Shown: in pieces, positions 9,541 to 58,500 of the stretch
Position numbering within the stretch: the stretch's first letter is position 1
Layout of the letters: the number at the start of each line of letters is the position of its first letter
Source of the DNA: Gammaproteobacteria bacterium
Lineage (GTDB): Bacteria; Pseudomonadota; Gammaproteobacteria; Burkholderiales; Burkholderiaceae_C
DNA: 64,000 nt
Direction: 5' to 3'
NCBI GenBank assembly: GCA_018815325.1
Contig: JAHIYE010000021.1
Span: 186,001 to 250,000 of the forward strand
Position numbers and translations under genes: made by a program
Notes under the pieces: generated by a model
Told to the model about the DNA's origin: nothing
Seen by the model: only the letters and a program-made list of their open reading frames with translations
Databases searched by the model: none

Positions 9541-12029
9541 TCAGGCTTCGACGCCGCACAGTCGAGAACTCAAATCAGAGGCTTCGAGCGCCTTCGCGAA
9601 CAGCCATCCTTGATAGGTTTCACAGCCGTTGGCGCGCAAAAAATCCAGTTGCTCATCGGTTTCAACCCCTTCGGCGACCAGCGTCAGTTCCAGGCTGTGG
9701 GCCAATGCGATGATGGACTTGGTGATCTTGACGTCATTGGTGCCGTGAGGAAGGTCCTTGATGAAATCCCTGTCGATTTTGAGTATGGATACGGGCAAGG
9801 CCTTGAGGTAGGCCAAAGAGGAATAGCCCGTGCCGAAGTCATCCAGTGCGACGCTACAGCCAAGCGCGACCAGGGCGTTGAGCTGCTCGCGCGCCTGCAT
9901 GGGCTGCGACATGGCGACCGTCTCGGTAATCTCAATTTCCAGCAAGTGTGCTGATGCACCCGCTCGCTTGAGCGCGTCGCGTACCTTGTCGGGAAAATTG
10001 CGCTGACGGAACTGTTGAGCTGAAAAATTGACGGCGACACGCAAGGGCGTGCCAGCCTGTTCCCAGGCGGCAATTTGCCTGCATGCTGTTTCCAGGACCC
10101 AGTCTGACAAGGGCAAAATCAGGCCGGTCGTCTCCGCAACCGGTATAAACCGCATCGGAGGGACATCACCCAACACCTCATCATGCCAGCGCAGCAAGGC
10201 CTCCGCGCCCACAATTTCATCACTTCCCACGCTCACCTGGGGCTGGAAAAGAAGTTTCAGCTTGCCTCGATTGATCGCCTCTTTAAGACGCACATGCAAC
10301 TGCATGGTTTCGTGGGCATGGTGATCCAGTTGCGCTGAATAGCAGGCATAGGCACCTCGCCCCGCCTCCTTGGCCTGGTACATCGCCATGTCAGCGTAAC
10401 GCAGGATGCTTTCACTGTCCTGGGTGTCGTCGGGATAGAACGCCAACCCGATGCTGCCACCCGTGTGGACATCCTGGTTTAACAAATGATGCGGTGCATC
10501 CAGCACGGTCAGCAGCTTCTCGGCCACGCTGATGGCCTCATCGGTGCTCTCCATGTCGGCGAGCAGGATGGCAAATTCATCCCCCCCATTCGCGCCAGCG
10601 TGTCGTTCTCACGCAGAGCTTCGCGCAGGCGGGTGCCGACCTGAACCAGCAGTTCATCGCCAACGGCATGACCAAAACTGTCGTTGACCGTCTTGAAACC
10701 ATCCAGGTCCAGAAACAGGACGGCCACATGGCGCTTGGTTCTCTTCGCATGCACCAAGGCCTGGTTCAGCTGCAGATGAAACAGCCACCGGTTGGGCAGC
10801 TTGGTCAGTTCGTCGTGGGTGGCCCGATGCCGCAGGGACTCTTCAAATCTTTTGCGTTCCGTCAAGTCGCGGATGTAGGCAATAGCGTACTGCTCGTTCT
10901 CATCCTCCCAATGGCCCAGCGAGATATCGATGGGCCGCATTTGTCCGTCACGGCGCAACAGTTTCAAGTCCATGGAGCCCATGGCACGGGAATGTGATGC
11001 GATGAAATAGTTCCGCATGGTCTCGGCGTGCCGGGCGCGCAGATGCAAGGGTAAAAAAATGTCGACATTCTGGCCAACCAATTCCCGAGCCGGATAACCC
11101 GAGAGCGTTTCCATCGCCGGGTTGGCCATCAAGATGCAACCTTTTTGGTCAACCCACAAAATGCCATCCGGCGCAGAACTGAGCACCAGTTTTTCCCGCA
11201 AATTCTGAATTTCAATGCGCTCGATCGGTCTGCGCAAGGCCTCGTTGAAGGTGGCGTGAAACAAATACAGATAAGCCGCGACCTTGTAAAGATGCCCAAG
11301 GACGTTGGCCCCGTCCTTGTCGATCACGCCGAGCATGGTGAAAAACAACTCCGAGACGGCTGACAAGGCTACGGCAAAGCCCAGGGCCATGACGCACTCA
11401 CGCGCCAATTCCACGCGGCGATGCCATAGCACCGCGAGGGTTAACAAGTGGATGGCGATGATCAGCCATTCCAGGCCGATCTTGAGCGGTGTCAAGCCTT
11501 GCCCGGCAATGAACAAGGCCGGCAGGCGGTCAGGCCAAATAAGGCCGACATACCCCACCATGCCCACCCCGACCAGCATCAAAGTCAAAGCAAGCCGCTT
11601 GGGTCGCTTGCTGACATTGGGCACCGCCGGCAGCCAGACATAAACCAGCAAGGCCGCAGCTGCGAGCATGCGTGCCGAAAGCCAGAAAAATATGGATTTT
11701 TGGGCGGAGTTGGCCGTTACCGCATCAGGCATCCCGGCATAACTCATGGTGTGCAGGAAATCGAGGATCCCCACACCCAGAAATGCCAGACCCAGCAGGA
11801 CGACAGCGCCTTTGCGGACGGACAAGAAAGCGCGGTAGCCCGTGATGAAGATGAGCATGGCCACTACGACTGCAAACAATTCCACGGCGCTGTGCCAGAA
11901 CACGAACTGCGTTGGTGCCACCACAATCTGCCGCGAGGGATGCGAGACCCACCACAAAAGAGGCAAGGCCAGCGTCAGCAGGAACCAGCCCGTGGCATTT
12001 TGGTAAGGGTGCTTATGTCGGGGTTGCAT
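9541..12029 (-). pseudogene. MASE3-PAS-GGDEF-EAL protein interrupted by a -1 frameshift in the GGDEF codons
   Basis: Read from 12029, the first frame encodes a seven- to eight-helix membrane sensor of MASE3 type (about residues 1-260), a PAS domain (about 270-380) and a GGDEF domain up to RMGG. It then shifts and ends after about 20 unrelated residues (10509). The second frame resumes with the end of the GGDEF domain and a complete EAL domain (GAEALLRW, LDDFGTGYSSLAYLK, LVAEGVET), ending at 9541. The break falls in a run of seven Gs on the coding strand (10581-10587). Eight Gs would restore RMGGDEFAILLADM. It may be a true mutation, a phase-variable tract or a sequencing error; apart from this site the gene is intact. 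There is no clear ribosome binding site at the ATG. Confidence 0.85.
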
Positions 12030-45323: not shown

Positions 45324-45400
<77 letters not shown>

Positions 45401-45425
45401 ACATGAAGCGGTCTCCGCTGATAGC

Positions 45426-45451
45426 AAACGCCAACTTTCGAGTTGGCGTTT
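45426..45451 (+). terminator. Intrinsic terminator of the tRNA-fMet transcript
   Basis: A 10-bp stem (45426-45435 with 45442-45451) with a six-base loop is followed by TTGCTTT. It is 25 bases after the tRNA end and uses A-T pairs at its base, the usual form of a rho-independent terminator. Confidence 0.85.
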
Positions 45452-45466
45452 TGCTTTGTGTCGAGG

Positions 45467-45494
45467 TTTGTGACGAGGGCTGTGTCGTCACAAA
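45467..45494. repeat. Perfect 9-bp inverted repeat near the tRNA-island junction
   Basis: TTTGTGACG at 45467-45475 is exactly mirrored at 45486-45494, ten bases apart. A second inverted repeat, AATTGAC/GTCAATT at 45525-45544, with another GTCAATT copy just after, follows. They could be recombinase accessory sites or operators at the edge of the island. Confidence 0.45.
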
Positions 45495-46221
45495 GTTTCA
45501 AGATTTCGTATGTGACCATTGGGTAATTGACTGATATGTCAATTCTTAGTCAATTTGATTAGTAGATTGAAGAGGTCCTTAAAAAAGATCGACACTCTAT
45601 GATGAGTTCGAAAATGGAACTCAAAGAATCTAGATGTCAGTCCCGTGCCGAAACTGGGCCTTGACAAGATGGACTTGAATGACCGCAAGGCAGCTTGGAT
45701 TCAACCGGTCGGGCTGATAGCCACGAAGGTCAGGTCTCTGCCAAGAGCGGAAGCTTACCGGCGGCTGCATTAGGGCGCCCCGGTGGATGGCAGTGTGTCC
45801 TGCGGACTTCACACGGCACCCTCCAACTTTCGTTTTCAACGCCAATTGAGGCAATCGACCGATCACTTCTTGATAATGACGCATTCTTGGTTCAGTACGG
45901 GGTTGACTTCCCGCCGTTGCCCTGCATCCCAGCTTACATGCGTGCTTGACCTACGGCCGCGACTTAGCGGCAGCCTCGCAGGTCGTCTTGGAAGTGAAAC
46001 CGCCCAGAATAGACATCGACACGTCGAGGATTTCACCAGGCGTGCCGCTAGCGATGTTTAGTGCCAAGACTAGGACCCACTCACCCATTCCAGCTCCCCG
46101 TTGGTGTTATTGACGGCCATTCTGGCCTAGCTGAGCCGCGTACTCCCCGGCGAGGGTGCCTCCGCATTGACCGCCTGCAAACATTTCGTTACCCTCCGTG
46201 CAGGGATGGGACAACAAACTA

Positions 46222-46725
46222 ATGGCAATTGATCAATCTGAACTGCTGCGAGCCGGTCAACGGCGGCCGCTTCTCAAATCGCAAATTCGTGCCGGCTTGC
46301 AAAAGACGGCCTTCCTGTGCCACAGCCACCGTGACGAAAAGCTCGCCGAAGGGCTGCAGGCACTACTCGCAGAACAGGGTGTCGAGCTGTACATCGACTG
46401 GAAAGACGCGTCGATGCCGCCCGAGCCCAATCGAGAAACGGCGTCACGGATCCAGCACCGCATCAAGACGTGCGACTGGTTCCTGCTTCTTGCCACCGCC
46501 AACTCCATGGGCTCGCGCTGGTGTCCGTGGGAGTTGGGCTATGCCGATGGCCAAAAGCAGCCTGACCGTATTGCCATCGTTCAGACATCCGATTCCACGA
46601 CCACACACGGCAACGAGTACATGCAGCTATACCGCCGCGTCGACACGTCCAGCGGCGGTGAACTGCTATGGGTGCCGGCGGGCAGCAACCAGGGGCAGTT
46701 CGTGCGCACTGTACCGTTCCTGTGA
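46222..46725 (+). CDS. TIR-domain protein (TIR1)
   Basis: A 167-residue cytoplasmic TIR protein, first gene of the cluster. The domain opens with TAFLCHSHRDEKLAEGLQAL (residues 29-48), has VELYIDWKDASMPPEPN, and carries the putative NADase glutamate Glu104 in SRWCPWELGYADGQ. The N-terminal ~25 residues are basic. It resembles TIR3 at 49572 closely enough (Y-I/V-D-W, PWELG) to suggest duplication. TIR enzymes of bacterial immunity degrade NAD+ or make signals from it; which applies here is not visible. The start was chosen at the ATG 46222; the frame is open eight codons upstream. Confidence 0.85.
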   Translation: MAIDQSELLRAGQRRPLLKSQIRAGLQKTAFLCHSHRDEKLAEGLQALLAEQGVELYIDWKDASMPPEPNRETASRIQHRIKTCDWFLLLATANSMGSRWCPWELGYADGQKQPDRIAIVQTSDSTTTHGNEYMQLYRRVDTSSGGELLWVPAGSNQGQFVRTVPFL

Positions 46726-46736
46726 GGGTGTGGTCA

Positions 46737-47873
46737 ATGGCGCTCTACCAATGTCTTCTACTAGGGGCACCGACCGACTCGCAGACCTCTGCCTTTTCGG
46801 CGACGTTTGACGAATGCCTCGGATTGTTTGGCCTGCTGCGCGGTCGCGACTACACGATTGACAGCGGTATCACCGCCGACTTCAGCGATACAACAGCCAC
46901 GGTGGCCGTCTTCTTCGGTGCCGACGGCACTGAGTACCCTGAAGCGGCCCGGCTGACCAAGCTGGGAGTGCCCGTGGTGCCCATCGTCAGCGTAGCCGCC
47001 CGCGTCAGCGCCGAGTTGCCAGCGGAGTTGCGCAGCATCAATGCGATGTTCCATGACCCCGCTGATACCGGCCTGCGCCGGGTCGTCACGGCTGCCTTGC
47101 AGTGTCTAGGCTTGCTGCCTGCCCAGCGGCGTGTCTTCGTCAGCTATCGCCGCGAGGAGTCGGCCGACGTCGCCCTGCAGCTTTACGAGACCCTGTCCGC
47201 GCGTCATTTCGACGTGTTCTTGGACACGCACTCTGTCTCTGTGGCCACCGACTTCCAGGCTGCGCTCTGGCATCGCCTGTGCGATTCCGATGTGCTGGTC
47301 ATGCTAGACACCCCGGGCTACTTCACCAGCCGGTGGACCACGGCCGAATGGGGTCGGGCCATCGCCAAGCACATCTCCATGTTGCAGTTGGTCTGGCCCG
47401 GTCACACGCCCGTGCGCGAGTCGCACTTGGCCACGTCGAAAAAGTTGACCGACGCCGACTTCACCGGCACACGCCTCACGCCGGCGATGGTCGCGGATGT
47501 CGCACTGGAACTCGAGCGCGTGCGAAGCGTCAGTGTGGCGCTGCGGCATACCAACATGGTCGGCACGCTGCGCACCGCGATCCAGGACCTGGGCGGCAGC
47601 GTCGAAGGCGTAGGCCAGAAGCGCTCCGTCATCCTAAAGCTGCCTTCCGGCAACCCGCTAGTGGTCTACCCGGTTGTTGGCGTGCCGACGTCGCTCGACG
47701 TCCATGATTGCATTGACCTGAGCGACTCGCGCGCCGCTGCCGTGGTCTACGACCACCTCGGCATAAGCGAGGAATGGCGGCGCCATCTGGACTGGCTCGC
47801 CTCCCGTGTCGGTGCCGTCAAATGGCTGCGAAGCCGCGAGGCGGATTGGCAGTTGGCCGATATCGAGCAGTAG
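46737..47873 (+). CDS. Multidomain protein with central TIR domain (TIR2)
   Basis: A 378-residue protein. Residues 1-125 form an unrecognised alpha/beta region (VAVFFGADGTEYPEAARLTK). Residues 132-210 are a TIR domain: RRVFVSYRREESADVALQLY, HFDVFLDTHSVSVATDF, LCDSDVLVMLDTPGYFTSRW, with candidate catalytic Glu204 in WTTAEWG. The last ~170 residues are another alpha/beta region of unknown fold. It starts 11 bp after TIR1, with GAGGG at good spacing. Two flanking unknown domains suggest binding to a partner or ligand. Confidence 0.8.
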   Translation: MALYQCLLLGAPTDSQTSAFSATFDECLGLFGLLRGRDYTIDSGITADFSDTTATVAVFFGADGTEYPEAARLTKLGVPVVPIVSVAARVSAELPAELRSINAMFHDPADTGLRRVVTAALQCLGLLPAQRRVFVSYRREESADVALQLYETLSARHFDVFLDTHSVSVATDFQAALWHRLCDSDVLVMLDTPGYFTSRWTTAEWGRAIAKHISMLQLVWPGHTPVRESHLATSKKLTDADFTGTRLTPAMVADVALELERVRSVSVALRHTNMVGTLRTAIQDLGGSVEGVGQKRSVILKLPSGNPLVVYPVVGVPTSLDVHDCIDLSDSRAAAVVYDHLGISEEWRRHLDWLASRVGAVKWLRSREADWQLADIEQ

Positions 47874-47875
47874 CC

Positions 47876-48505
47876 GTGGGCGCGATCTTTCTATCCGCTA
47901 GCGTGCCGACGCGCGAACCGTACAGCTCAGACTGCCGGCCACAGGAGATCCAGGCCGCCGTTAACGCGCTGGCACAGGTGGTGCTGGGTCGCAAGACGCT
48001 AGTTTGGGGCGGCCATCCGGCCATCACGCCGCTGCTGTGGTCAGCGGCGCAGGCGGTGGGCGTCGAGTACACGGTGGCGGTAGAGCTGTTCCAGTCGAAG
48101 TTGTTCCAGAAGGTGCTGCCAGAAGAGAACAAGAACTTCGCGAACGTGAAGCTGATCGACGCTGTCGGCGAGGACGTTGAAGCCAGCCTGCTCGCGATGC
48201 GCAAGGCCATGTTCACGTCCGGCGAGTTTGAGGCGGCCGTTTTCATAGGTGGTATGCATGGCATCCTGGACGAGCACAAGCTGTTTACGAGTTACTGGCC
48301 CAACGCAACGTGCATCCCCATCGCCCAAACCGGCGGCGCGACCGTGCACCTCGCTCGAGATCTGAACTACCTGCCACCCGACGATTTGGCGCCACTGGAT
48401 TTCGTGGCGCTGCTCTATCGCGGCTTGGGCATCCGGCCCAGCCAAAAGCGAGAAGCCCGAGTAGACCAAGGAAAAGACCATGGCACGAGTCCCGGTATTT
48501 TATAG
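47876..48505 (+). CDS. Stand-alone SLOG-like nucleotide sensor
   Basis: A 209-residue Rossmann-like protein. FLSASVP (5-11), VWGGHPAITPLLWSAA (43-58), VFIGGMHGILDEH (122-134) and IAQTGGATVHLA (149-160) fit the SLOG superfamily, whose members bind nucleotides or NAD-derived signals. In Thoeris ThsA a SLOG domain senses the TIR product but is fused to a SIR2 effector; here it is alone. The start is a GTG at 47876, three bases after the TIR2 stop; a longer frame upstream overlaps TIR2. Its 3' end overlaps the next gene by 26 bp. Confidence 0.72.
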   Translation: MGAIFLSASVPTREPYSSDCRPQEIQAAVNALAQVVLGRKTLVWGGHPAITPLLWSAAQAVGVEYTVAVELFQSKLFQKVLPEENKNFANVKLIDAVGEDVEASLLAMRKAMFTSGEFEAAVFIGGMHGILDEHKLFTSYWPNATCIPIAQTGGATVHLARDLNYLPPDDLAPLDFVALLYRGLGIRPSQKREARVDQGKDHGTSPGIL

Positions 48506-48959
48506 TTTTCACTTCGACAACGACGTCATGCGGGTCCAGCAGATCCGCCAGATGGGCATGATCGATGACGATGAACCGGTCTCCAAGAACGACTGGGAGA
48601 CCGTTAAGCGCAGCGGAACCGGCGCCGTCGAGCGGTGGATCGACGACAACATGAAATACAAGCGCTGCGTGGTTGTGCTGATCGGCACCGACACGCACGC
48701 ACGCCCCTGGGTGCAACACGAAATCAGGAAGGCCTGGACGGACAACCGCGGCCTGCTGGGTATCCACATCCACAACCTGAACTGTCCCCGACAGGGCACC
48801 TGCTCCAAGGGCACGAACCCGTTCGATCAGTTCACCTTCCGCGAGGGCAATAACATCGTGCGGCCTCCAGTCTATGACCCGCCAGCCTACGGCACCCACA
48901 ACCACATCAAGGACCACCTGGCGGCGTGGGTGGATGACGCCATCGCCCGCCGTCAATAG
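48480..48959 (+). CDS. Thoeris ThsB-like TIR protein (DUF1863-type), copy 1
   Basis: A 159-residue MTH538-type TIR-like protein. It begins VFYSFHFDNDVMRVQQIR, has the strand KRCVVVLIGTDTHARPWVQ followed by candidate catalytic Glu81 (PWVQHEIRKAW), then RGLLGIHIHNL. These are the features of ThsB proteins that make cyclic ADP-ribose-type signals upon phage infection. A second copy occurs at 50200. Its gene overlaps the SLOG gene and is followed by a membrane protein, so they are probably co-translated. Confidence 0.85.
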   Translation: MARVPVFYSFHFDNDVMRVQQIRQMGMIDDDEPVSKNDWETVKRSGTGAVERWIDDNMKYKRCVVVLIGTDTHARPWVQHEIRKAWTDNRGLLGIHIHNLNCPRQGTCSKGTNPFDQFTFREGNNIVRPPVYDPPAYGTHNHIKDHLAAWVDDAIARRQ

Positions 48960-48978
48960 GCCCGGCAAGCACTGCGTC

Positions 48979-49389
48979 ATGTCCGACATCTCCAACAAGC
49001 ACAAGCACCTCGAGTTCATCCAGGCGTCGATCAGCCGGATGTCCGGCAACCTTTTCTTGCTCAAGGGTTGGAGCGTCACGCTCATCGCTGCTCTCTTCGC
49101 CCTGGCGGCCAAGGACACCAACAAGGCCTACATCGTCGTGGCCTATTTCCCGCTGTTCATCTTCTGGTTCTTGGACGGCTACTTCCTCGCGATGGAGAGG
49201 CGCTTCCGGTCGCTGTACGAGCATGTGCGGCAGCTCAAGGAGGAAGACATCGACTTCTCGATGAACACCGAGCCGTACAAGAGCGACCCGCGAAATAAAT
49301 TGATCTCGACATTGTTTTCCCGGACCTTGTTCCCGTACTACGTCACTTTGGCCATCCTGATGATTCTGCTGTCGTTCTTCTTGCGCTAG
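48979..49389 (+). CDS. Small three-helix membrane protein, candidate pore-forming effector
   Basis: A 136-residue protein with hydrophobic helices at about residues 28-44, 50-70 and 118-134. The N-terminal stretch HKHLEFIQASISRMSGNLF and LLKGWSVTLIAALFALAA recall small membrane proteins I have seen next to ThsB-like genes, and the layout recalls SLATT-type effectors linked to SLOG sensors. Family membership is uncertain. It starts 19 bp after the ThsB-like gene. A membrane-damaging effector triggered through SLOG or TIR signals is a reasonable inference. Confidence 0.7.
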   Translation: MSDISNKHKHLEFIQASISRMSGNLFLLKGWSVTLIAALFALAAKDTNKAYIVVAYFPLFIFWFLDGYFLAMERRFRSLYEHVRQLKEEDIDFSMNTEPYKSDPRNKLISTLFSRTLFPYYVTLAILMILLSFFLR

Positions 49390-49449
49390 GCGACCCAGAC
49401 CGCGGCATCCCACTGAACTTACCGACAAACCAGTCTTGGCGAAAGAAAT

Positions 49450-49572
49450 ATGAATCACAAATTTTTCCTCAGCTTCGCGTCTGACGATTGCGCGATCAAT
49501 GTCATTGGCCAGCCGCTGGCAGATCAGCAGACCGCCGTAATCCGGGCACTTATCGAACTTCAGGGGATGTGA
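49450..49572 (+). CDS. 40-residue ORF coupled to TIR3, possible TIR strand remnant
   Basis: An ORF starting with ATG at 49450, with GAAAG eight bases upstream. The product begins MNHKFFLSFASDD, which resembles the first strand of a TIR domain, then diverges and ends in ALIELQGM. Its stop overlaps the ATG of the next TIR gene (TGATG), a typical coupling arrangement. It could be a leader peptide gene that couples translation or the decayed start of another TIR gene. Confidence 0.4.
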   Translation: MNHKFFLSFASDDCAINVIGQPLADQQTAVIRALIELQGM

Positions 49573-50171
49573 TGGCAGCGCGTCATTTCACAAAGACGGA
49601 AGCACGGGCTGCGGCTCAGGCCGCAACTCGACAGTTCTCTGCGCGGTCCGCAGGACAAATTCTGGAGTCCGTGCGTGCCAATACGCGCGATTCCGAGGCG
49701 TTCGACATCTTTTTGTCGCATGCGATTGCTGACGCTGAGTTGGTTCTCGGCGTTAAGCAACTGTTAGAGCAGCAGGGGGCCACGGTTTACGTGGACTGGA
49801 GCCACGACCCACAACTTGATAGGTCGAAGGTCAACACCGAGACAGCGGCGCTGCTCCGCCAGCGCATGAGGCAGTCGAAGTCCCTGATCTACCTAGCGAC
49901 CGACGCGGCGACCACATCGAAATGGATGCCTTGGGAGCTCGGATTTTTTGATGGCTTTCGATCCAACGGCGTGGCCATCATGCCCCTGCTGGACAGAGAG
50001 ACCGATGGCTTTGCAGGTCAGGAATATCTAGGCCTTTACCCCAGGGTGACCAAGGACAACTACCGAAACTCGGCTGCCTCGGATGTGTTTGTCGAGGGCC
50101 TTGGTCGCTGGACGACCCTCAAGTCGTTCCGAGCGGGAACCCCCAATTGGCAAAGTTACACCAATCCCTAG
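49572..50171 (+). CDS. TIR-domain protein (TIR3)
   Basis: A 199-residue protein with a ~40-residue basic, Ala-rich N-terminus followed by a TIR domain: AFDIFLSHAIADAELVLGVK, ATVYVDWSHDPQLDR, and candidate catalytic Glu122 in SKWMPWELGFFDGFR. The resemblance to TIR1 indicates a shared subfamily. It is followed 28 bp later by the second ThsB-like gene, so TIR1 and TIR3 both accompany a ThsB-like protein in this cluster. Confidence 0.85.
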   Translation: MAARHFTKTEARAAAQAATRQFSARSAGQILESVRANTRDSEAFDIFLSHAIADAELVLGVKQLLEQQGATVYVDWSHDPQLDRSKVNTETAALLRQRMRQSKSLIYLATDAATTSKWMPWELGFFDGFRSNGVAIMPLLDRETDGFAGQEYLGLYPRVTKDNYRNSAASDVFVEGLGRWTTLKSFRAGTPNWQSYTNP

Positions 50172-50199
50172 ACGAATTTTCAGACCAAAGGAGAGTCAC

Positions 50200-50649
50200 A
50201 TGGCGAGACGTACGTTTTTCAGTTTTAACCACGGCCGCGACAACTGGCGGGTTGGCCAGGTGCGCAACAGCTGGGTCGTTGGCAAGGATCGCGAGGCCGC
50301 CGGCTTCTGGGACGCTGCAGAATGGGAAAAGGTGAAGCTGCAAACTCCGGACAAGATCCGTAAGTGGATCGACGAACAGCTCGTCGGAACTTCGGTTACC
50401 GTGGTCCTCATCGGCAACGAGACCTCCACTCGGCCGTATGTGAAGTACGAGATCGAGCAGAGCGTCGCACGGGGCAACGGCTTGCTGGGGGTCTACATCC
50501 ACAACATGAAGGACGTGGAAGGCAAGACCGACACAAAGGGCTTAAACCCGCTTCCTGCTGGCTACAAGACGTACGACTGGGTCAATGACGATGGCCGGAA
50601 CAACATCGGGGCATGGATCGAAGCCGCTGCGAAGGTCGCGGGGCGATGA
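50200..50649 (+). CDS. Thoeris ThsB-like TIR protein (DUF1863-type), copy 2
   Basis: A 149-residue ThsB-like protein: RTFFSFNHGRDNWRVGQVR, TVVLIGNETSTRPYVKYEI with candidate catalytic Glu84, and NGLLGVYIHNMKD. It has a strong ribosome binding site (AAAGGAGAG). It resembles copy 1 in length and motif order but differs in many residues; the two may sense different triggers, as multiple ThsB proteins do in some Thoeris loci. No ThsA gene is present in the window. Confidence 0.85.
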   Translation: MARRTFFSFNHGRDNWRVGQVRNSWVVGKDREAAGFWDAAEWEKVKLQTPDKIRKWIDEQLVGTSVTVVLIGNETSTRPYVKYEIEQSVARGNGLLGVYIHNMKDVEGKTDTKGLNPLPAGYKTYDWVNDDGRNNIGAWIEAAAKVAGR

Positions 50650-50660
50650 TCTAATCGGTG

Positions 50661-51266
50661 ATGGAGCGCTGTAAGGGAAAAAACCAGAGAGATCAGCGCT
50701 GCTTGCGGCCAGCATCAGCCGGTAGCAGCTACTGCGCGTCCCACGCTTCTCAAGGCGCCACCAAAGACGCCTGGACCTACGGCATAGGCGCTGTCTTGGG
50801 CCACATGGTGGCGCCCGGCGTCGGTGGCGCGATCGCTGGCGCCGCTGCCAGCAAGTTTTTCTCTTGGCTCGCCGAATCGGATGGAACGCGGCCACCGCGG
50901 GTTTTCGTCAGCTTTGACTTCGATAACGATCAGCAGCTCAAGCATCTGCTGATCGGCCAGACCAAGCGACAAAACCTGCCATTCTCGGTGGTCGATGGTT
51001 CCTTGAAAGAGGCTGCTCCCGAGCCGCGCTGGAAAGAAGCGGCGCTGAGGGAGATCCGTCGATGCGACGTGGTCGTCGTACTGCTTGGGCGTTACACGCA
51101 CAAGGCGCCTGGCGTGTTGGCCGAGGTAGCCATGGCTCGGGCGGAAGGCAAGCCCATCGTGCAGCTCATCGGTAGCCGAGCGGGCGCCTACACCCGCGTG
51201 AGGGGCGGCGGCAGGATCTTGGCCTGGACGCAGGACAACCTTTCGAGGCTATTCGGCGGCTTTTGA
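50661..51266 (+). CDS. Zinc-finger/glycine-rich/TIR-like fusion protein (TIR4)
   Basis: A 201-residue protein with an unusual layout. Residues 1-30 contain a Cys/His cluster (Cys4, Cys14, Cys25, His28) that could bind zinc. Residues 38-70 form a Gly/Ala-rich hydrophobic stretch, YGIGAVLGHMVAPGVGGAIA, which may enter or associate with a membrane. Residues 79-171 are a TIR-like domain: PRVFVSFDFDNDQQLKHLL, CDVVVVLLGRYTHKAPG and candidate Glu155. A GTG just before the ATG is an alternative start. It ends the TIR cluster. Confidence 0.75.
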   Translation: MERCKGKNQRDQRCLRPASAGSSYCASHASQGATKDAWTYGIGAVLGHMVAPGVGGAIAGAAASKFFSWLAESDGTRPPRVFVSFDFDNDQQLKHLLIGQTKRQNLPFSVVDGSLKEAAPEPRWKEAALREIRRCDVVVVLLGRYTHKAPGVLAEVAMARAEGKPIVQLIGSRAGAYTRVRGGGRILAWTQDNLSRLFGGF

Positions 51267-51650
51267 ACGTTTTGACTGGCGTAGCGCTGCCGAGATGAGC
51301 TGCAGCTTTCTGACATGCCACATCACTACGGCCGACTACCGCTTTACAGCCGATAGCTGCCGCTCGGTGAGCCCGCCTCGAACGGCGGCGAACAGCCTGA
51401 AGCCGACATCGCAATTCTGAACGGCAGTTGTGCAGCGGTTGCTGCCGGTGGTGTCAGCCCCCTGAGTTCACGGTCTGGGCTACACAGAGGTCATTCATGC
51501 GCCAGTGAAATCTTGGAGCCGCCCCTATTGGCGAAGCGCCATTCGTTCGATCAATGGACCTCACTCACCAATCCTGGGGATAGCAAATGATGTGGCGAGA
51601 AGCTCGGCTGGCCGCCAGCAATGTAGGCAGCCGGGTCACACATCCTTCAC
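51267..51650. other. Convergent intergenic stretch, no confident gene
   Basis: The 384 bases separate the rightward TIR cluster from the leftward Gabija-like block. A 41-codon open frame begins at 51295 but has no recognisable feature. I saw no clear terminator. Confidence 0.4.
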
Positions 51651-52937
51651 CTAGGGCCATTTCATCGGAGTGAACTGCGGCCACTCTACTAGCGTCGGGT
51701 TGTCCGGCGGAGCGTGGGCTAATCCGAACTTCGTAGTTAGTTCGTCGAGATGCGTTTCGAGGTAGGTGAGATGCGTCAGCTCCATATCGGCGAACGACGC
51801 GATGCTCGCGAACTCAAAGAAGAGCCTTGCAAAGTAGGGCGTGGATATCCCGGACAAGGGGGCCCTGCCCGGTATAGCACCAGGGCGCGTGACGACCAGC
51901 GTGACCATGGGGTGATCAACGAAGGTCGCAGCCAGACCCTTGGCTGCAAATGCAGCGACGAGTTCATCTGTTTCGAGAAGGATCATCAGCGTCAAGTCGC
52001 CGTTCATGAATCCGTAGAGATCTTCCTTGCGGCGGATGGATAGCACAAATGGGAAATACGGCATCCATTGGCCTTCGGTCTTCGCTTCATTGAGAATTGC
52101 CACGGTGGTCCTAGGCTTCATGTACTGATCCAGCCTAGATGCGGCCTCGACTGAGCGCACTGCGAGATAGGTCAGCCCGGGCTCCGGCGAGTTCGCGGCA
52201 AAGCCGCTGTCTCGCGAGCTGGCGATGCAGTCGTTCATGGCGTCAACATGGGATACGTCCGATCCTGGCACTTCGAGCCTAGCGACCTGATCAAGACCTC
52301 GAAAGTTTTTTGCCACGTCCGTCTTAAGGAACTGCCTGAGTGCGGTAAGGCTAGCGATCTGCCGGTCAACGCGCGCGTTGCGGTTCTTGCTGGTCTTGAC
52401 CTCGACCGGAATCGGGTCGGGGCCGATCAGCACGCAGATATCGCCATGCCGGATCGTGTTAGTGAGGTCGGAGAGGACCGCAGGAATCTCCCGGCCAATG
52501 ATCAGCTTGAGGATCGACCACTCCTTGCGCAAGCCCACTTTGCCGAGAATCGCTCCTGCCGCCTCCTTCACGCTGTATTCGTGCGTGTTGTAGAGCATGT
52601 GCTTTAGGGCAAGCTTGTTCAGATAGATGAAGGCTATCCCGTCCCCAAAGCAGCGCCAGAAAAACAAAAGCCGTTGTGCATCGGTGATCGCCTCGCTGGT
52701 CGCGGCGATCGCGTCCTTGGTCCGCTTTGCTTCCTCTTTTTTAGCCCCGGCCTTCTTCTGCTGCACGAGCGCCTTGCGCTTAGTCTTCAGCGCGGCAATG
52801 CGCGCATCGGTACGCTTGATGCGTGACAGCAGTTCCTTCTGAAGATCGAACAGAAGCGCGTAGTCCGACGGTCTCGCTTCGAGTGCGCGAAGCATCTCGG
52901 TGAGTTTGTAGATCGAGGGACGATAGCGGGACAGCAT
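51651..52937 (-). CDS. PD-(D/E)xK nuclease-like protein associated with Gabija-like genes
   Basis: A 428-residue protein I cannot assign to a named family. A Lys/Ala-rich coiled region (about residues 25-85) precedes HGDICVLIGPDPIPVEVKTS (Asp, then Glu-Val-Lys about 13 residues later), which fits the active site of PD-(D/E)xK nucleases. The C-terminal half is alpha/beta without recognised motifs. It follows the helicase gene on the same strand. I chose the ATG at 52937; a TTG at 53084 overlapping the helicase is possible. It may add DNA cleavage to the system; this is inference. Confidence 0.6.
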   Translation of the reverse strand: MLSRYRPSIYKLTEMLRALEARPSDYALLFDLQKELLSRIKRTDARIAALKTKRKALVQQKKAGAKKEEAKRTKDAIAATSEAITDAQRLLFFWRCFGDGIAFIYLNKLALKHMLYNTHEYSVKEAAGAILGKVGLRKEWSILKLIIGREIPAVLSDLTNTIRHGDICVLIGPDPIPVEVKTSKNRNARVDRQIASLTALRQFLKTDVAKNFRGLDQVARLEVPGSDVSHVDAMNDCIASSRDSGFAANSPEPGLTYLAVRSVEAASRLDQYMKPRTTVAILNEAKTEGQWMPYFPFVLSIRRKEDLYGFMNGDLTLMILLETDELVAAFAAKGLAATFVDHPMVTLVVTRPGAIPGRAPLSGISTPYFARLFFEFASIASFADMELTHLTYLETHLDELTTKFGLAHAPPDNPTLVEWPQFTPMKWP

Positions 52938-53034
52938 CGTGAAGCGGCCAAATGCATTCTGCGATGGTTGCAGGCAGTGAACGTAGGGGCCGAGGGCCAA
53001 GATAACAGATGATATCTTGCAGACCGGATGTGCT

Positions 53035-54297
53035 TCATGTGAAGGGAGGCTGGTCCATATGAGCAGATGCCTGCACAAGGACAATGCATCGCTCTTTCGC
53101 GCGTGTCACTGCGTTATATAGCAAACGCCGCTTCTGGTCGTCGCTGCCGCCCACGGCTGCCGGCCAGAGAACAATGACGTTGTCGAACTCCCGGTTCTTG
53201 GCGCCGTGAACTGTCATCCCCTTCCATCCACGAACGTCGCTTCTCCGAGATTGGCGGCGCTGGGAAAAGGACTGCTCGACCAACTTCACGACCTCATCCC
53301 TCGTGAACTCCACCTTCGCCCTGGTCCGACGTTGAATCTCTAGCCATTCGGTCACATCTCTGGCCGTTCTGGCATCACCTGCAGCAGCAAGGACTGCAGC
53401 GATGGAAGGACCATCAGCCTTGTCGGCTAGTTGAATCGTGGCGAGGTACTCGGATGCAGCTTTTGCCTCCGACTGTTCCCAAGCAACGTTGTAAGGGCCT
53501 GCACCCTTCTTGGTCTTGTTTGCGGCAGCCCAGGCCAATGCAGCTCTCGAAAACGCCCCGTGCGTTGGGGTGATGATCGCGACACGCTTGCCTCCGCCGT
53601 ACCAACTCAAATTGGAGTTGATCCATGCACCAGCCAACGGAGCCGTCGACGTCTGCGCAACAATGAAGAATTTGTCTGATTTAGGCGCTTCGCCGGCGCG
53701 AATCGCTTGAGCTGCATTGAGCAACTCGTCGACGTTGGTCCGACGGGGCTGTGTAAGTTCTTGTGGGGCGCATACCTGGGATAGCCAAGCACATGCCGGA
53801 TTGGGGCGAAGCACCTCGCTGAGGCACTGAAACTCGTCGGCAGCGACGAAGACCTCCAGCCTGTTGGCCAGGCCTGCAACCATGCCGAGGCGATTTACAG
53901 TCATGTCTTGCGCTTCGTCCACAACGAGAATGGGAAACGTCGCCGCCACCCAGTTGTAGACTTCCTTGACGTTTGCGAGGGCACTGGCAGCTTCACATAC
54001 ACGCTCGTACTCACTCGGTTCGATGTTTACGAAGCCGAAAGCGGCGGCAAGGGAACGCCAACGCCGAACTAAACGCCATGCGAAGCTGTCAATGGTCGCG
54101 CATTCCGTCTTGCCCTTGAGGTTCTGAAGCATCCCAAGACGCTCTTCCAAGCGCCGGCGAGATCCGTGCATGAACGTGAGCGCCAGGACTTTCTGACCGA
54201 CATGCAAAGGTGCTGCGTCCAGATGAGCAGAAAGCGATTCCATGAGCATGTGGGTCTTGCCGCAACCAGCACCGCCGATGAATGCGCGGACCTTCAC
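53035..54297 (-). CDS. UvrD/Rep-like helicase, Gabija GajB-like
   Basis: A 420-residue superfamily 1 helicase, shorter than UvrD. Walker A is FIGGAGCGKTHML, Walker B LVVDEAQDMT, motif III VAADEFQCL, motif V MTVHGAKNREFDNVIVLWP and motif VI LLYNAVTRAKER. The start GTG overlaps the upstream stop (GTGA), and another GTG five codons upstream is possible. Pairing with an OLD-family nuclease is the hallmark of Gabija, where GajB helps GajA act on phage DNA. Confidence 0.85.
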   Translation of the reverse strand: MKVRAFIGGAGCGKTHMLMESLSAHLDAAPLHVGQKVLALTFMHGSRRRLEERLGMLQNLKGKTECATIDSFAWRLVRRWRSLAAAFGFVNIEPSEYERVCEAASALANVKEVYNWVAATFPILVVDEAQDMTVNRLGMVAGLANRLEVFVAADEFQCLSEVLRPNPACAWLSQVCAPQELTQPRRTNVDELLNAAQAIRAGEAPKSDKFFIVAQTSTAPLAGAWINSNLSWYGGGKRVAIITPTHGAFSRAALAWAAANKTKKGAGPYNVAWEQSEAKAASEYLATIQLADKADGPSIAAVLAAAGDARTARDVTEWLEIQRRTRAKVEFTRDEVVKLVEQSFSQRRQSRRSDVRGWKGMTVHGAKNREFDNVIVLWPAAVGGSDDQKRRLLYNAVTRAKERCIVLVQASAHMDQPPFT

Positions 54298-56084
54298 GGC
54301 TGAAACACCCACACTCCATTGGCCCCGCGAACAAAGCGCTGCGTAGCTTCATCACCGGCACAAGCACAAGCCAGACCACTCAGTAGGTCTGCCGCCCGCT
54401 CCCTACAGGCAGGCGTCGTAGCAATGGCTTCCGCAAGACTTTCGTAGGCGATGATGTCCATCTTCTTCGTCTTCAGGTATGCGACCACCGCCGCACTCGA
54501 AGCAGGTGGTTGCGGGGGTATCTCCGCCAACTTCCCTACCACCGTCGGCTCGTCCGCATTGAGGATCCACCCGATGGCGTCTTCGATCATTGCACCATCG
54601 TTCCAGCGGATGATCGCGCTCGGAGGGGCGGCGTCTTGCCGCAATTGAGCCGCATAGTCCAGCCCAGCTGCATCACCGTCGACTAAGCAGCACACGCGCT
54701 TGTGAAGCCGCCTCATCAGCCGGTGGGTCTCGATGACATTTGCGTCTTCCGTCGGAATCACTCCGACTTCAATGCCAAAGGGTCGCTGCATCGTGTCGAT
54801 CCATCCTTCGGTCATCATCAAAGGTCGGAGGATGCAACGTAGCAGCTGGAAATCGGATCTGCCTTCTGGAACGAGAAGTGCAGGCTGCATCAATGCACTC
54901 AACACGTCAATGCGGCTGTGTTGAAAAAACTTGCGCTTCCAATTCGGGGCTGCCGCGGTAAGGGGGCTTGCCAAGAATGGCTCGGCAGTGAGAACGCCAT
55001 CATGCTTCTTCAAGATCAGCACCGAGGTCGGATCTGCCATGCTGGCAACGAGAGGCGAATGGGTCGTTACGAAGGTCTGGGTAGACAGAGCTTGAACCCG
55101 CTGAACCAACCGCTGCTGTGCGGAGGGTGGGAGATGGACTTCAGGCTCCTCCAGCGCCATTATGAACTCTCCACCGCTTGCAGCACGAGCGCGACCAAGC
55201 TCAAGCAGCAGCAATAGGCCTTGCATGGACACCAGCCCACTACCCTGTCTCGCCGCAGGAATACTAAAGCCATCCGTTCCTGCAAAGTGGGCTGAGACAG
55301 CATCCATCACCGACCGGCTGTCGGTGCTGGTGAGCCTCAATTGGACCTTCGGAGCATTCGGGAATGAGAACGCAAGTTCGTTGTTCAGATTCTGAATCAG
55401 CGGTTGGATGCCCGGGTCAGCATCGATCGGCTGGGCCGGCGCCCGCAGGCGATCTCGCTCAGCGAGCAGTGCATCTGCAGGCTGAGCCGCTGCAGCAAAC
55501 AGAGTGCGCTTGAAAAGCTCATTCCCCCATGAAAAGACTTTGTCCCAAGTCCGGCTCGCGCGCACGAGATAGAAACTCAGTTCCTGTACGAGCTTGCCTG
55601 GAACAGGGGCCGGTGCCTCATCGGCGAAAGGATCGATGGGCTCATCGTGGTCATGGAAGTAGCGCACCGTCTCGACAGCTAAGCTGTCGTGGTCGAAACG
55701 CGCTTGAACGCCGAGTTGACAGCACAGCTTCCACGCAGGGTTGTTGCGCGCCGGATGCACATGGCCTGTTGCCTCGTCAAGCCATTTGACTACCGCCCGC
55801 TCATCACGAAACCACTGGCTGCTCTGCTCCGGGTCATCGCTGGGAAAATCAGTGACCGTTGCTACGACCTTGATCCTGTCGGCAGCCTGTGGGTTGGATC
55901 CGAAGAAGTCATGCTCGGTCAGTTCGCGAACTAGACGATCTCTGCCAAGCACGAGAGTCAATGCTTCGATCAGAGTTGTCTTGCCGGTATTGTTGTCCCC
56001 AACAAGAACGGGATGCCTGCCGAACTGCACGAAGCCACTTCTTACGCCCCGAAAGTTCTCGATTCTCAAATTGGCTATTCGCAC
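54294..56084 (-). CDS. OLD-family ATPase-TOPRIM nuclease, Gabija GajA-like
   Basis: A 596-residue class-2 OLD protein. The ABC-type ATPase has Walker A GDNNTGKT (29-36), a QGSGLVSMQGLLLL signature region and Walker B MALEEPEVHL. The C-terminal TOPRIM domain shows LLVPEGRSDF (Glu407) and LVDGDAAG (Asp469, Asp471), so nicking or cleavage of DNA is expected. The GTG at 56084 has a very strong AGGGGGGAAGG site, so I prefer it to the frame's upstream ATG. With the following helicase it forms a Gabija-like pair. Confidence 0.85.
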   Translation of the reverse strand: MRIANLRIENFRGVRSGFVQFGRHPVLVGDNNTGKTTLIEALTLVLGRDRLVRELTEHDFFGSNPQAADRIKVVATVTDFPSDDPEQSSQWFRDERAVVKWLDEATGHVHPARNNPAWKLCCQLGVQARFDHDSLAVETVRYFHDHDEPIDPFADEAPAPVPGKLVQELSFYLVRASRTWDKVFSWGNELFKRTLFAAAAQPADALLAERDRLRAPAQPIDADPGIQPLIQNLNNELAFSFPNAPKVQLRLTSTDSRSVMDAVSAHFAGTDGFSIPAARQGSGLVSMQGLLLLLELGRARAASGGEFIMALEEPEVHLPPSAQQRLVQRVQALSTQTFVTTHSPLVASMADPTSVLILKKHDGVLTAEPFLASPLTAAAPNWKRKFFQHSRIDVLSALMQPALLVPEGRSDFQLLRCILRPLMMTEGWIDTMQRPFGIEVGVIPTEDANVIETHRLMRRLHKRVCCLVDGDAAGLDYAAQLRQDAAPPSAIIRWNDGAMIEDAIGWILNADEPTVVGKLAEIPPQPPASSAAVVAYLKTKKMDIIAYESLAEAIATTPACRERAADLLSGLACACAGDEATQRFVRGANGVWVFQP

Positions 56085-56117
56085 CCTTCCCCCCTCTCTT
56101 ATGGGTGGTCGGACCAA

Positions 56118-56438
56118 AGGCTCCGGCCGTCAAGTGTCTTGGCCGTCACAGTCTAAGCTATTGCCAACCAAAGTCAGCTTTAGGTTGACGCAGACGTTCG
56201 GTGTCCAATCACATGCGACTGCAACCAGGCCTGAAGCGGACATCCCGTCAAAAATACCAAACGGCTGCTCCTCGCCGAGCGCAGTAGTCGCGTCCTATCT
56301 TTCAAATGACAGATGCTGCAACTATGTGGTCAGTTTTAAAGCCCGGCAGATAAGGCTAGATATTCAAATAGCCTTGGACAATTGCAACCAGTGGCCCAAA
56401 CAATCAGCGGCAGGACTCAAAGACACAGACCCAGAGCC
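56118..56438. other. Upstream region of the Gabija-like operon, no gene seen
   Basis: These 321 bases lie between the start of the OLD-family gene and the end of the Xre gene, both leftward. The sequence is of mixed composition. No reading frame has domain features; it should contain the promoter of the nuclease operon, but no obvious boxes stand out. Confidence 0.4.
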
Positions 56439-56669
56439 CTAGCTTTCATCCCCAGGCACATGCTCCATCAGGTCTTCAACTTTGCAATCAAAGTATTGGC
56501 AAAGCCGGTCAACTGTTTCTGTTCCGGTGCCATATCCCTTTTGATTCAGGATTTTTGACAGCGTCATCCGGTTAAGACCGGTAGCTGTGGCGATCTCATT
56601 GATGGTGACGCGTCGCCCTTCGGCGAACTGCTTCTTCTCCATCATTTCACCCAGCTTGAATCTGATCAT
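56439..56669 (-). CDS. Xre/Cro-type small repressor
   Basis: A 76-residue protein with a Cro/CI-type helix-turn-helix: VTINEIATATGLNRMTLSKI, then the third helix region TVDRLCQYFDCKVEDLMEHV. Its start diverges from an AlpA/Xis-like gene and integrase across an AT-rich control region with an inverted repeat. It probably represses excision functions or itself. Confidence 0.87.
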   Translation of the reverse strand: MIRFKLGEMMEKKQFAEGRRVTINEIATATGLNRMTLSKILNQKGYGTGTETVDRLCQYFDCKVEDLMEHVPGDES

Positions 56670-56746
56670 GTGTATGAAAAGTCACAAAAGATAAATATAT
56701 ATATCAAATGACTTGTAAAGTGAGCTTTTATGCGTATCATTGGCAT

Positions 56747-56772
56747 CAAGTGATAAAAATATTAATCACTTG
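56747..56772. promoter_or_regulatory. Inverted repeat operator between xre and the integration genes
   Basis: CAAGTGAT at 56747-56754 is mirrored by ATCACTTG at 56765-56772, ten bases apart, inside an AT-rich divergent promoter region. A partial copy (CAAATGACTTG) occurs near 56705. This is the expected place for the Xre repressor to bind. Confidence 0.55.
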
Positions 56773-56798
56773 CAACCTTGATTGTAAAGGAGCTACCA

Positions 56799-57047
56799 AT
56801 GTTGGGTCAGACATATCTCACCACAGATGAACTGTCGTCAAGAATCAAGTATGACGTCCGAACCATTCGCGAACGGCTGAAGGACAGTGTGTTGATTGAG
56901 GGGGTTCACTATCTGAGACCGTTCGGAGGTCGAAAGATACTGTTTGTTTGGGAGGCCATTGAGCGTGACATGAAGGTTGCATCAGTTCAGCAGCCGGTCG
57001 GTATGGGGGCCATTCCCATGGCAAATGGAGCTGTGCTTCATGGCTAA
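56799..57047 (+). CDS. AlpA/Xis-like DNA-binding protein
   Basis: An 82-residue protein with a winged-helix pattern: YLTTDELSSRIKYDVRTIRE, followed by a beta-wing VHYLRPFGGRKILFVWEAI. This is the form of excisionases or AlpA regulators coupled to integrases. It begins after AAAGGAG and overlaps the integrase start by 8 bp. It likely directs excision or activates the integrase gene. Confidence 0.8.
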   Translation: MLGQTYLTTDELSSRIKYDVRTIRERLKDSVLIEGVHYLRPFGGRKILFVWEAIERDMKVASVQQPVGMGAIPMANGAVLHG

Positions 57048-58500
57048 AGTCAATGTGAGAAAGGAGACGGGCAAGCTTGTGATCGACTTCACTTATCGCG
57101 GTGTACGGTGTCGTGAGCAAACTGCATTGCCAGATTCGCTGCAAAACAGGAAGCGCGTCCAGGGAGTGCTGGAAAAGATCGCAAAGTCTCTGAAGGAAGG
57201 AACCTTCAAATACAGGGAGTTTTTCCCGGAAAGTGCCCTCGCTTCAAGATTCGATCCAGTTATCGCTCTGAAATCTCCAGACGGGAAAACAGAAGAATCG
57301 TGCATTGGGCAAATTACGCCACTGTTCAAAGACTTCGCCAACCAGTGGGTAGACGAGCACAGCATCGAATGGCGCCGTAGTCACATCAAGTCACTGGTCT
57401 CGACTCTCAACAGCCGGCTGATCCCCCATTTCGGCGACAAGTCCGTCAACGCAATCAGCAAATCGGACATTCTTGCTTTTCGCGCAACACTGGCTCAAGT
57501 GCCAGGACGCGGTGACAAGGCAGGACTCTCACCAAAACGGATCAACGAAATCATTGGTCTGCTGCGCCAGATCCTGGCTGAAGCAGCTGAACGATTTGAG
57601 TTCACGTCACCCGCACTCAACATCAAGACCCTGCGTCTTAAAAAGACGGATGTACACCCGTTCAGCCTGAACGATGTGCAGCAGATCATGGCCACCGTTC
57701 GCCCTGATTACAAAAACTACTTTGTTACCCGATTCCTAACCGGTATGCGAACAGGTGAAGTCCATGGCCTGAAGTGGAAATACGTCGACTTTGATCTCCG
57801 TATCCTGAAAGTGCGGGAAACCTTCGTGCTCGGTGAAGACGAATACACCAAGACAGATGGCAGCCAGCGTGACATCCAGATGAGTCAGCCGGTGTATGAC
57901 GCACTGAAGTCACAGTTTGACGTGACAGGAAAACTCTCTGACTACGTGTTCTGCAACCTGCTTGGTCAGCCGCTCGATAACAAGAACTTTTCAGACAGGG
58001 TCTGGTATCCGCTGCTCAGGCATCTTGATCTGGAAAAGCGTCGTCCGTATCAGATGCGACATACCGCAGCCACACTATGGCTGGCAGCCGGTGAGGCGCC
58101 TGAATGGATAGCCAGACAGTTGGGACACACCAGCACCGAGATGCTGTTCCGGGTCTACAGCCGCTACGTTCCCAATCTGACACGACAGGATGGATCCGCC
58201 ATGGAGCGACTGCTGGCCAGCAAACTGGCCACCGGAAACCTGATCCCCCTGCAAAGTCCGCAGGAGGATGCAAAAGCAAACGGGAACTGGCGCAACACAG
58301 CGACCTACGTACCCGGTACCAATATCCCGCCCCAGGTCACACCCAAACCGCGTGGCATCCATGGATCACGCAGCATCCGTTCACCAGCAGACCGTGACAT
58401 CGTGATTCCTGCCCCGAGGTCGAAGGCGGGCAATGACCCCCAGCCTCCGCCCATGAGGTGGATGAGTCTGGCGTCAGCACCAGTTCACTGGTCAGCCTAA
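57040..58500 (+). CDS. Tyrosine recombinase/integrase
   Basis: A 486-residue integrase. The N-terminus (MAKVNVRKETGKLVIDF) is an arm-binding domain of the DUF3596 type; a core-binding domain follows at about residues 90-200. The catalytic part shows Arg237 (LTGMRTGEVHGL), the box II sequence YQMRHTAATLWLAAG (Arg340, with Tyr337 at the first His position), LGHTS (His363) and the nucleophile Tyr373 in FRVYSRYV. The ~100-residue C-terminal tail is Pro-rich and unusual. Its attachment site cannot be identified in the window. Confidence 0.93.
   Translation: MAKVNVRKETGKLVIDFTYRGVRCREQTALPDSLQNRKRVQGVLEKIAKSLKEGTFKYREFFPESALASRFDPVIALKSPDGKTEESCIGQITPLFKDFANQWVDEHSIEWRRSHIKSLVSTLNSRLIPHFGDKSVNAISKSDILAFRATLAQVPGRGDKAGLSPKRINEIIGLLRQILAEAAERFEFTSPALNIKTLRLKKTDVHPFSLNDVQQIMATVRPDYKNYFVTRFLTGMRTGEVHGLKWKYVDFDLRILKVRETFVLGEDEYTKTDGSQRDIQMSQPVYDALKSQFDVTGKLSDYVFCNLLGQPLDNKNFSDRVWYPLLRHLDLEKRRPYQMRHTAATLWLAAGEAPEWIARQLGHTSTEMLFRVYSRYVPNLTRQDGSAMERLLASKLATGNLIPLQSPQEDAKANGNWRNTATYVPGTNIPPQVTPKPRGIHGSRSIRSPADRDIVIPAPRSKAGNDPQPPPMRWMSLASAPVHWSA

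Follow-up and report, generated by a model that had tools for sequence, protein, structure and literature searches.

A Gabija-type gene pair adjoins a gene of the nuclease-like phrog_14906 family in an island-like stretch of a bacterial genome

Shedu (SduA) is a PD-(D/E)xK nuclease that works as a single gene. Gabija, which consists of two genes, is described in the available part of PMC10781630 as forming a 4:4 complex and degrading phage DNA, and the same source describes the features with which the motifs of the OLD-family protein and helicase studied here agree. A preprint proposes, in the part available (PMC12407980), that Gabija acts on linear DNA devoid of RecBCD. For the resolvase Hjc (1gef), the accessible text of PMC1913061 names residues E9, D33, E46 and K48. 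Rousset and colleagues, in the accessible part of PMC9122126, identified two intervals as hotspots of antiviral systems, one between psu and the integrase gene of P4-like satellites and the other between gpA and gpQ of P2-like prophages, with old and tin in the P2 interval. The locus analysed here combines a gene pair of the Gabija type with a third gene from a family that is also found in these two intervals.

The gene pair and its surroundings

Three genes lie on the minus strand at positions 51651-56084 of the window (the whole stretch of DNA analysed, 64,000 nucleotides). The first (54294-56084, 596 aa) encodes a GajA-like, OLD-family protein with an ABC ATPase and a TOPRIM part, and the second (53035-54297, 420 aa) a short, UvrD-like helicase resembling GajB. 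Both have a GTG start; that of the OLD gene is preceded by GAGAGGGGGGAAGG, and that of the helicase gene lies in a GTGA shared with the stop of the OLD gene. The GTG start of the OLD gene is also used in a relative that is 92% identical (locus L101), and the annotated copy of P. putida S12 has the same length as the window protein read from this codon. The OLD protein matched the Pfam families AAA_15 (8.4e-21) and AAA_21, with a sub-threshold match to Toprim_2 (0.07). It has a Walker A motif at residue 29 and the TOPRIM residues Glu407 and Asp469-Gly-Asp471, and thus the ABC ATPase and the TOPRIM domain with Glu and DxD that define GajA. The helicase matched UvrD_C_2 (4.3e-13) and UvrD-helicase and contains GGAGCGKT, in which GKT is followed by H, together with DEAQD, as in GajB, an SF1A helicase with Gx4GK[TT] and a DEXQD box encoded beside GajA. 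The PADLOC models for GajA (1.5e-51) and GajB (2.2e-25) matched the OLD protein and the helicase, respectively. Judged by these sequence features, the two genes are an ordinary two-gene Gabija-type pair with a short helicase. The preliminary description of this DNA, made from the sequence alone, had reported three same-strand genes, a Gabija-like pair overlapping by GTGA and a GTG start of the OLD gene behind a very strong ribosome binding site; all of these observations agree with the results above.

Matches to the OLD protein at E below 1e-20 were obtained in 16 plasmid records. Among 299 genomes of the taxonomic family of the window, a close helicase (91%) occurred only in the window's own genome and in one other (G824), the next-best match having an E value of 2.4e-10, and a scan of viral contigs with the helicase found no relative.

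The open frame of the third gene spans 51651-53084 and would overlap the helicase gene if read to its full length. This overlap was rejected, because alignments of homologues place the most likely start at the ATG at 52937. The gene would therefore extend over 51651-52937 (minus strand), encode 428 aa and begin 97 bp behind the helicase stop. The similarity of the pair to its relatives at the DNA level ends at the helicase edge of this spacer (52938-53034). The region 52600-53400 yielded no promoter- or terminator-like site, and G+C content (57.7, 57.9 and 57.8%) did not separate the three genes.

The genes lie in an island-like stretch (45324-58500) that runs from a tRNA-Met gene (45324-45400), located, by eye, behind a ribosomal-protein and rpoA-like region, to a tyrosine integrase gene (56977-58500). 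A search of the window for the borders of this stretch revealed no repeat of more than 12 bases from the tRNA-Met end. The plus strand at 48480-51266 carries four ThsB/TIR-like genes (48480-48959, 49488-50171, 50083-50649 and 50658-51266), among which a membrane protein matching PADLOC PDC-M50A lies within the frame 48874-49389. No ThsA was found among the window proteins scanned. Two further frames, 46198-46725 and 46668-47873, appeared TIR-like by eye.

The third protein and its family

The third protein matched no Pfam or NCBIfam family at cut-off and no PADLOC family. The profile phrog_14906 (PHROGs v4) matched all 44 aligned family members, with a best E value of 3.7e-135, and gives no mechanism, since it is listed as being of unknown function. 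The same 44 members matched no PADLOC family and neither of the Pfam models Hjc (PF01870) and SduA_C (PF14082) at E 0.01; membership of Hjc or Shedu by Pfam profile was therefore rejected. A profile search of PDB sequences matched no nuclease, and a literature search, supplements aside, found no paper on phrog_14906 or on three of its E. coli member proteins.

The 44 sequences of the alignment (A2) were 25-48% identical to the window protein. In its numbering, in which residue 1 is the Thr preceding Met, the invariant residues are Glu140, Asp158, Asp167, Glu180, Lys182, Arg190 and Gln194, and all were unchanged after the addition of five E. coli members (49/49 sequences, including that of the window). 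PD-(D/E)xK motifs I to III (Glu, Asp and Glu-x-Lys) are thus conserved in every aligned sequence. In the window protein, the Asp is followed 13 residues on by Glu-Val-Lys, a spacing from Asp to Glu, and then x-Lys, that is the same as in Hjc 1gef according to the part of PMC1913061 available. The predicted active-site stretch (52359-52523, minus strand) includes the codons for Glu (52521-52523), Asp (52440-52442), Glu (52401-52403), Lys (52395-52397) and Gln (52359-52361). The preliminary description had proposed a nuclease-like protein with a PD-(D/E)xK-like site, an Asp and then EVK, and a coiled region. The site is borne out and goes beyond chance, being identical in all 49 sequences.

The AlphaFold model of the whole protein was confident (mean pLDDT 92.1, pTM 0.91). 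It placed long helices at residues 2-106, forming a hairpin that accounts for the coiled region, followed by an alpha-beta part in which the order of secondary structure elements fits the PD-(D/E)xK superfamily. Coiled coils and helical bundles filled the results of fold searches with the whole model, and the part from residue 107 was therefore folded alone (88.7 and 0.82). Foldseek returned nothing significant for either the whole model or this part. In VIA-align searches with the part alone, 10 of the 12 best rows were Holliday-junction resolvases, representing about five different proteins, with Z values of 4.3 to 3.2 (best row: 68 residues, 3.0 A, 18% identity); Hna was level at 4.3 and Bax1 reached 3.0, and all these values are low, none being 5 or more, and can reflect a common arrangement. 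Each of these matches covers the stretch with the invariant residues. The fold prediction called for in the preliminary description thus pointed to a nuclease core, but weakly. Taken with the invariant residues, the model and the fold matches support the nuclease-like character that had been proposed, and the third protein likely carries a PD-(D/E)xK core.

Genomic settings of the third gene

We compared the pair with its closest relatives. By blastn, DNA similarity was 88% over 53027-56149 with a genome of the same taxonomic family (L101) and 82% over 53032-56083 with plasmid pTTS12 of P. putida S12 (L088), in both cases ending at the helicase stop, and the third gene was absent from both. 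The third protein gave no tblastn match at E 0.01 in any of 12 plasmid pair loci (L088 and L090-L100, of which L099 is fragmented, while the systems of L090 and L100 nearly duplicate one another; L089, with a broken pair, was left out).

For the converse count, 54 loci with a family gene were fetched outside the window, and 51 were kept after the removal of L047 (25% identity over part of the protein, outside the cluster), L034 (duplicate of L033) and L056 (duplicate of L052); these 51 still include fragments (L005 and L035) and related loci (L003, L004 and L043, which share neighbours). A pair of the window's type was present in one of them, from Massilia (L016), with an OLD protein, helicase and third protein 61, 49 and 36% identical, respectively, to those of the window. 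Any Gabija-like pair was present in four (L016, L033, L038 and L044), and none in the DNA covered for the other 47; 13 of 54 loci, here including the window, have less than 3.5 kb on one side, so pairs may be missed there. The family gene lies directly downstream of the pair in L016, starting 14 bp after the helicase gene, further downstream after two genes in L038, upstream in L044 and convergent to the pair in L033; in four of the five Gabija-adjacent cases (window included), gene and pair share a strand. In a tree of 48 rows, the Gabija-adjacent copies and that of the window fell on separate branches (five changes), and a single clade uniting the three-gene sets of the window and Massilia, as one inherited unit, was rejected by the AU test (p 1.45e-56).

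The third gene is therefore not regularly linked to GajA-GajB (0/12 plasmid pairs, 0/1 related genome, 4/51 loci). The preliminary description had suggested that it extends Gabija as an accessory, and had proposed counting how often its homologues neighbour OLD plus UvrD pairs. That suggestion was not upheld: close relatives of the pair lack the gene, and the homologues occur mostly away from such pairs. Five independent cases, the window and four of the 51 loci, are nevertheless more than random genome positions would give. This excess may stem from the clustering of defence genes in islands, and there may be a looser link between the family gene and Gabija.

The family is rare. Beyond the window's own genome, it was detected in 0/59 relatives, 0/273 genomes of the class, 1/397 of the phylum and 1/199 of the taxonomic family, these samples overlapping. 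A single-sequence scan of viral contigs with the third protein gave no match; an alignment-based scan of viral contigs did find family members. No match was obtained in phage records with the proteins of the window, L022 and L054. Thirty scanned neighbours of family genes included integrases, phage tail genes (L052) and RES, SIR2, HipA, FRG, SMC-like and OLD-like proteins, along with a transporter, a transposase and unmatched proteins. Of 129 neighbours tallied (127 of 143 listed, with the helicases of L016 and L044 included manually and the OLD gene of L033 being among the 16 proteins left out), a match to the Shedu C-terminal domain was obtained for two and to a phage integrase for three. 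The gene upstream was on the same strand in 35/48 loci (one, L016, mis-called) and the gene downstream in 17/49.

Several settings recur or stand out. In three rhizobial loci (L004 277-6760, L043 3242-9725 and L003 1-5502), the family gene is divergent from two genes, one encoding a NERD/kinase-like/SF1 helicase protein of 1656-1668 aa and one of about 494 aa with no Pfam match, with an intervening IS in L003. In L009, the family gene lies 3 bp beyond the end of a 481-aa gene (10052-11497, minus strand) for which Pfam gave no match. In a viral contig (L052 6000-11320), the family gene directly follows minor tail/baseplate hub genes, a typical cargo position. The Klebsiella record containing L002 (CP125156.1, 5.4 Mb) is filed as a plasmid and is probably a chromosome, because it has yicI and a P4-like integrase region.

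A family gene was found in 27 of 5426 E. coli genomes, ten copies being about 97% identical to the Klebsiella gene of L002 and 17 showing 60-80% identity; a search with the second of these types recovered 17 genomes, and the Pantoea gene of L013 had no match in the E. coli genomes. Ten of the 27 loci were inspected, taken from the best search rows rather than at random, and all ten occupied one of the hotspot intervals. Five lay between psu (polarity suppression) and the integrase gene of P4-like satellites at tRNA-Sec (L103, L104, L106, L111 and L112), and five between the replication endonuclease and portal genes (gpA-gpQ) of P2-like prophages (L105 and L107-L110). This position is an association, not a function, and no test of the family gene was seen in the part of PMC9122126 available, supplements aside. 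Five of the E. coli loci were tested for an OLD protein or helicase of the window's kind, and none was found. Two genes without a Pfam match, one of 243 aa on the same strand upstream of the family gene (L105 3174-3905) and one of 457 aa on the opposite strand downstream of it (L103 10407-11780), could be its partners.

Interpretation and comparison with described systems

The explanation that we favour, with a probability of roughly 0.6, is that two separate cargo modules adjoin in one island: a Gabija-type pair and a member of a previously undescribed nuclease-like family, probably with an anti-phage role. By analogy with the known system, the TOPRIM nuclease of the first module, with its ABC ATPase, and the SF1 helicase would cut foreign DNA. 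The second module would be the single PD-(D/E)xK-like gene of the phrog_14906 family. In the model, its N-terminal helical hairpin would probably serve self-association or target binding, and the Glu, Asp and Glu-x-Lys of its Hjc-like core would hold metal and cut DNA, most likely that of phages or rival mobile elements, with no need for Gabija. The family as a whole is best read as mostly stand-alone and nuclease-like, with no Pfam, NCBIfam or PADLOC model found for it. It probably serves competition among phages, satellites and hosts, in which cleavage, substrate and defence are our inferences.

A more specific proposal, which we regard as tentative and rather doubtful, is that phrog_14906 is a new single-gene anti-phage system, in which the Hjc-like nuclease and the hairpin would recognise a branched or recombining intermediate of phage DNA, and that P2-like phages, P4-like satellites and defence islands carry it. 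The occasional position beside Gabija-type pairs would then reflect a shared action on the ends or junctions of phage DNA. The resolvase-like structures that come closest to the core, and the many copies in prophages, in satellites or beside integrases, are also what would be expected of a housekeeping nuclease of mobile elements, resolving junctions or assisting recombination in phage, satellite or island DNA rather than acting as a weapon. We consider this unlikely, given that the E. coli copies occupy the variable hotspot intervals and not the conserved replication genes (PMC9122126, in the part available), that so few of the E. coli genomes carry the family and that its gene is also found among defence genes outside phages.

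It is also quite improbable that the third gene encodes a genuine accessory subunit in a variant of Gabija, joining or following GajAB and trimming, nicking or licensing the DNA attacked. The strand and gene order common to the window and Massilia L016, where the gap is short, would fit such a subunit, as would the Gabija-like pairs near the family gene in three other loci (L038, L044 and L033). However, the closest relatives of the pair and all the plasmid pairs do without the gene, such a pair is absent from the DNA covered for most family loci, and the layouts differ among copies that do not form one clade. Least probable by far is a third protein devoid of nuclease activity, with a core serving as a binding or regulatory domain. 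That neither sequence searches nor Foldseek gave a significant match to a nuclease would be consistent with such a protein, but even members with as little as 25% identity to the window protein retain the active-site residues, and the residue spacing fits the PD-(D/E)xK superfamily.

If the two-module explanation is true, a nuclease family found across Pseudomonadota, for which the Pfam, NCBIfam and PADLOC libraries scanned offered no model, would amount to a defence gene that can be tested directly. It is carried in E. coli by P2- and P4-like elements, whose cargo lends itself to cloning and to challenge with standard phages. The locus also provides a caution, in that a gene next to a Gabija pair and on its strand is not necessarily a Gabija component.

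With respect to described systems, the locus resembles Gabija in the overlap of its OLD/TOPRIM nuclease gene with the gene for a UvrD-like helicase, in the PADLOC matches and in the motifs. It differs in the length of the helicase (420 aa, versus chains of 493-499 residues in PDB entries) and in the third gene, which is not a Gabija component. Shedu differs from the family, no member of which (0/44) matches the SduA_C model at E 0.01. Hjc-type resolvases rank best among the structural matches of the core (Z 4.3 to 3.2) and have the same Asp-13-Glu-x-Lys spacing, but the Pfam Hjc model matches 0/44 members at E 0.01, and the third protein has an additional N-terminal hairpin and C-terminal part. 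The family corresponds to phrog_14906, which all 44 aligned members match. Finally, the E. coli members, in psu-int or gpA-gpQ, resemble the cargo of P2/P4 hotspots (old, tin, PARIS and others), whereas the window copy sits in a chromosomal island.
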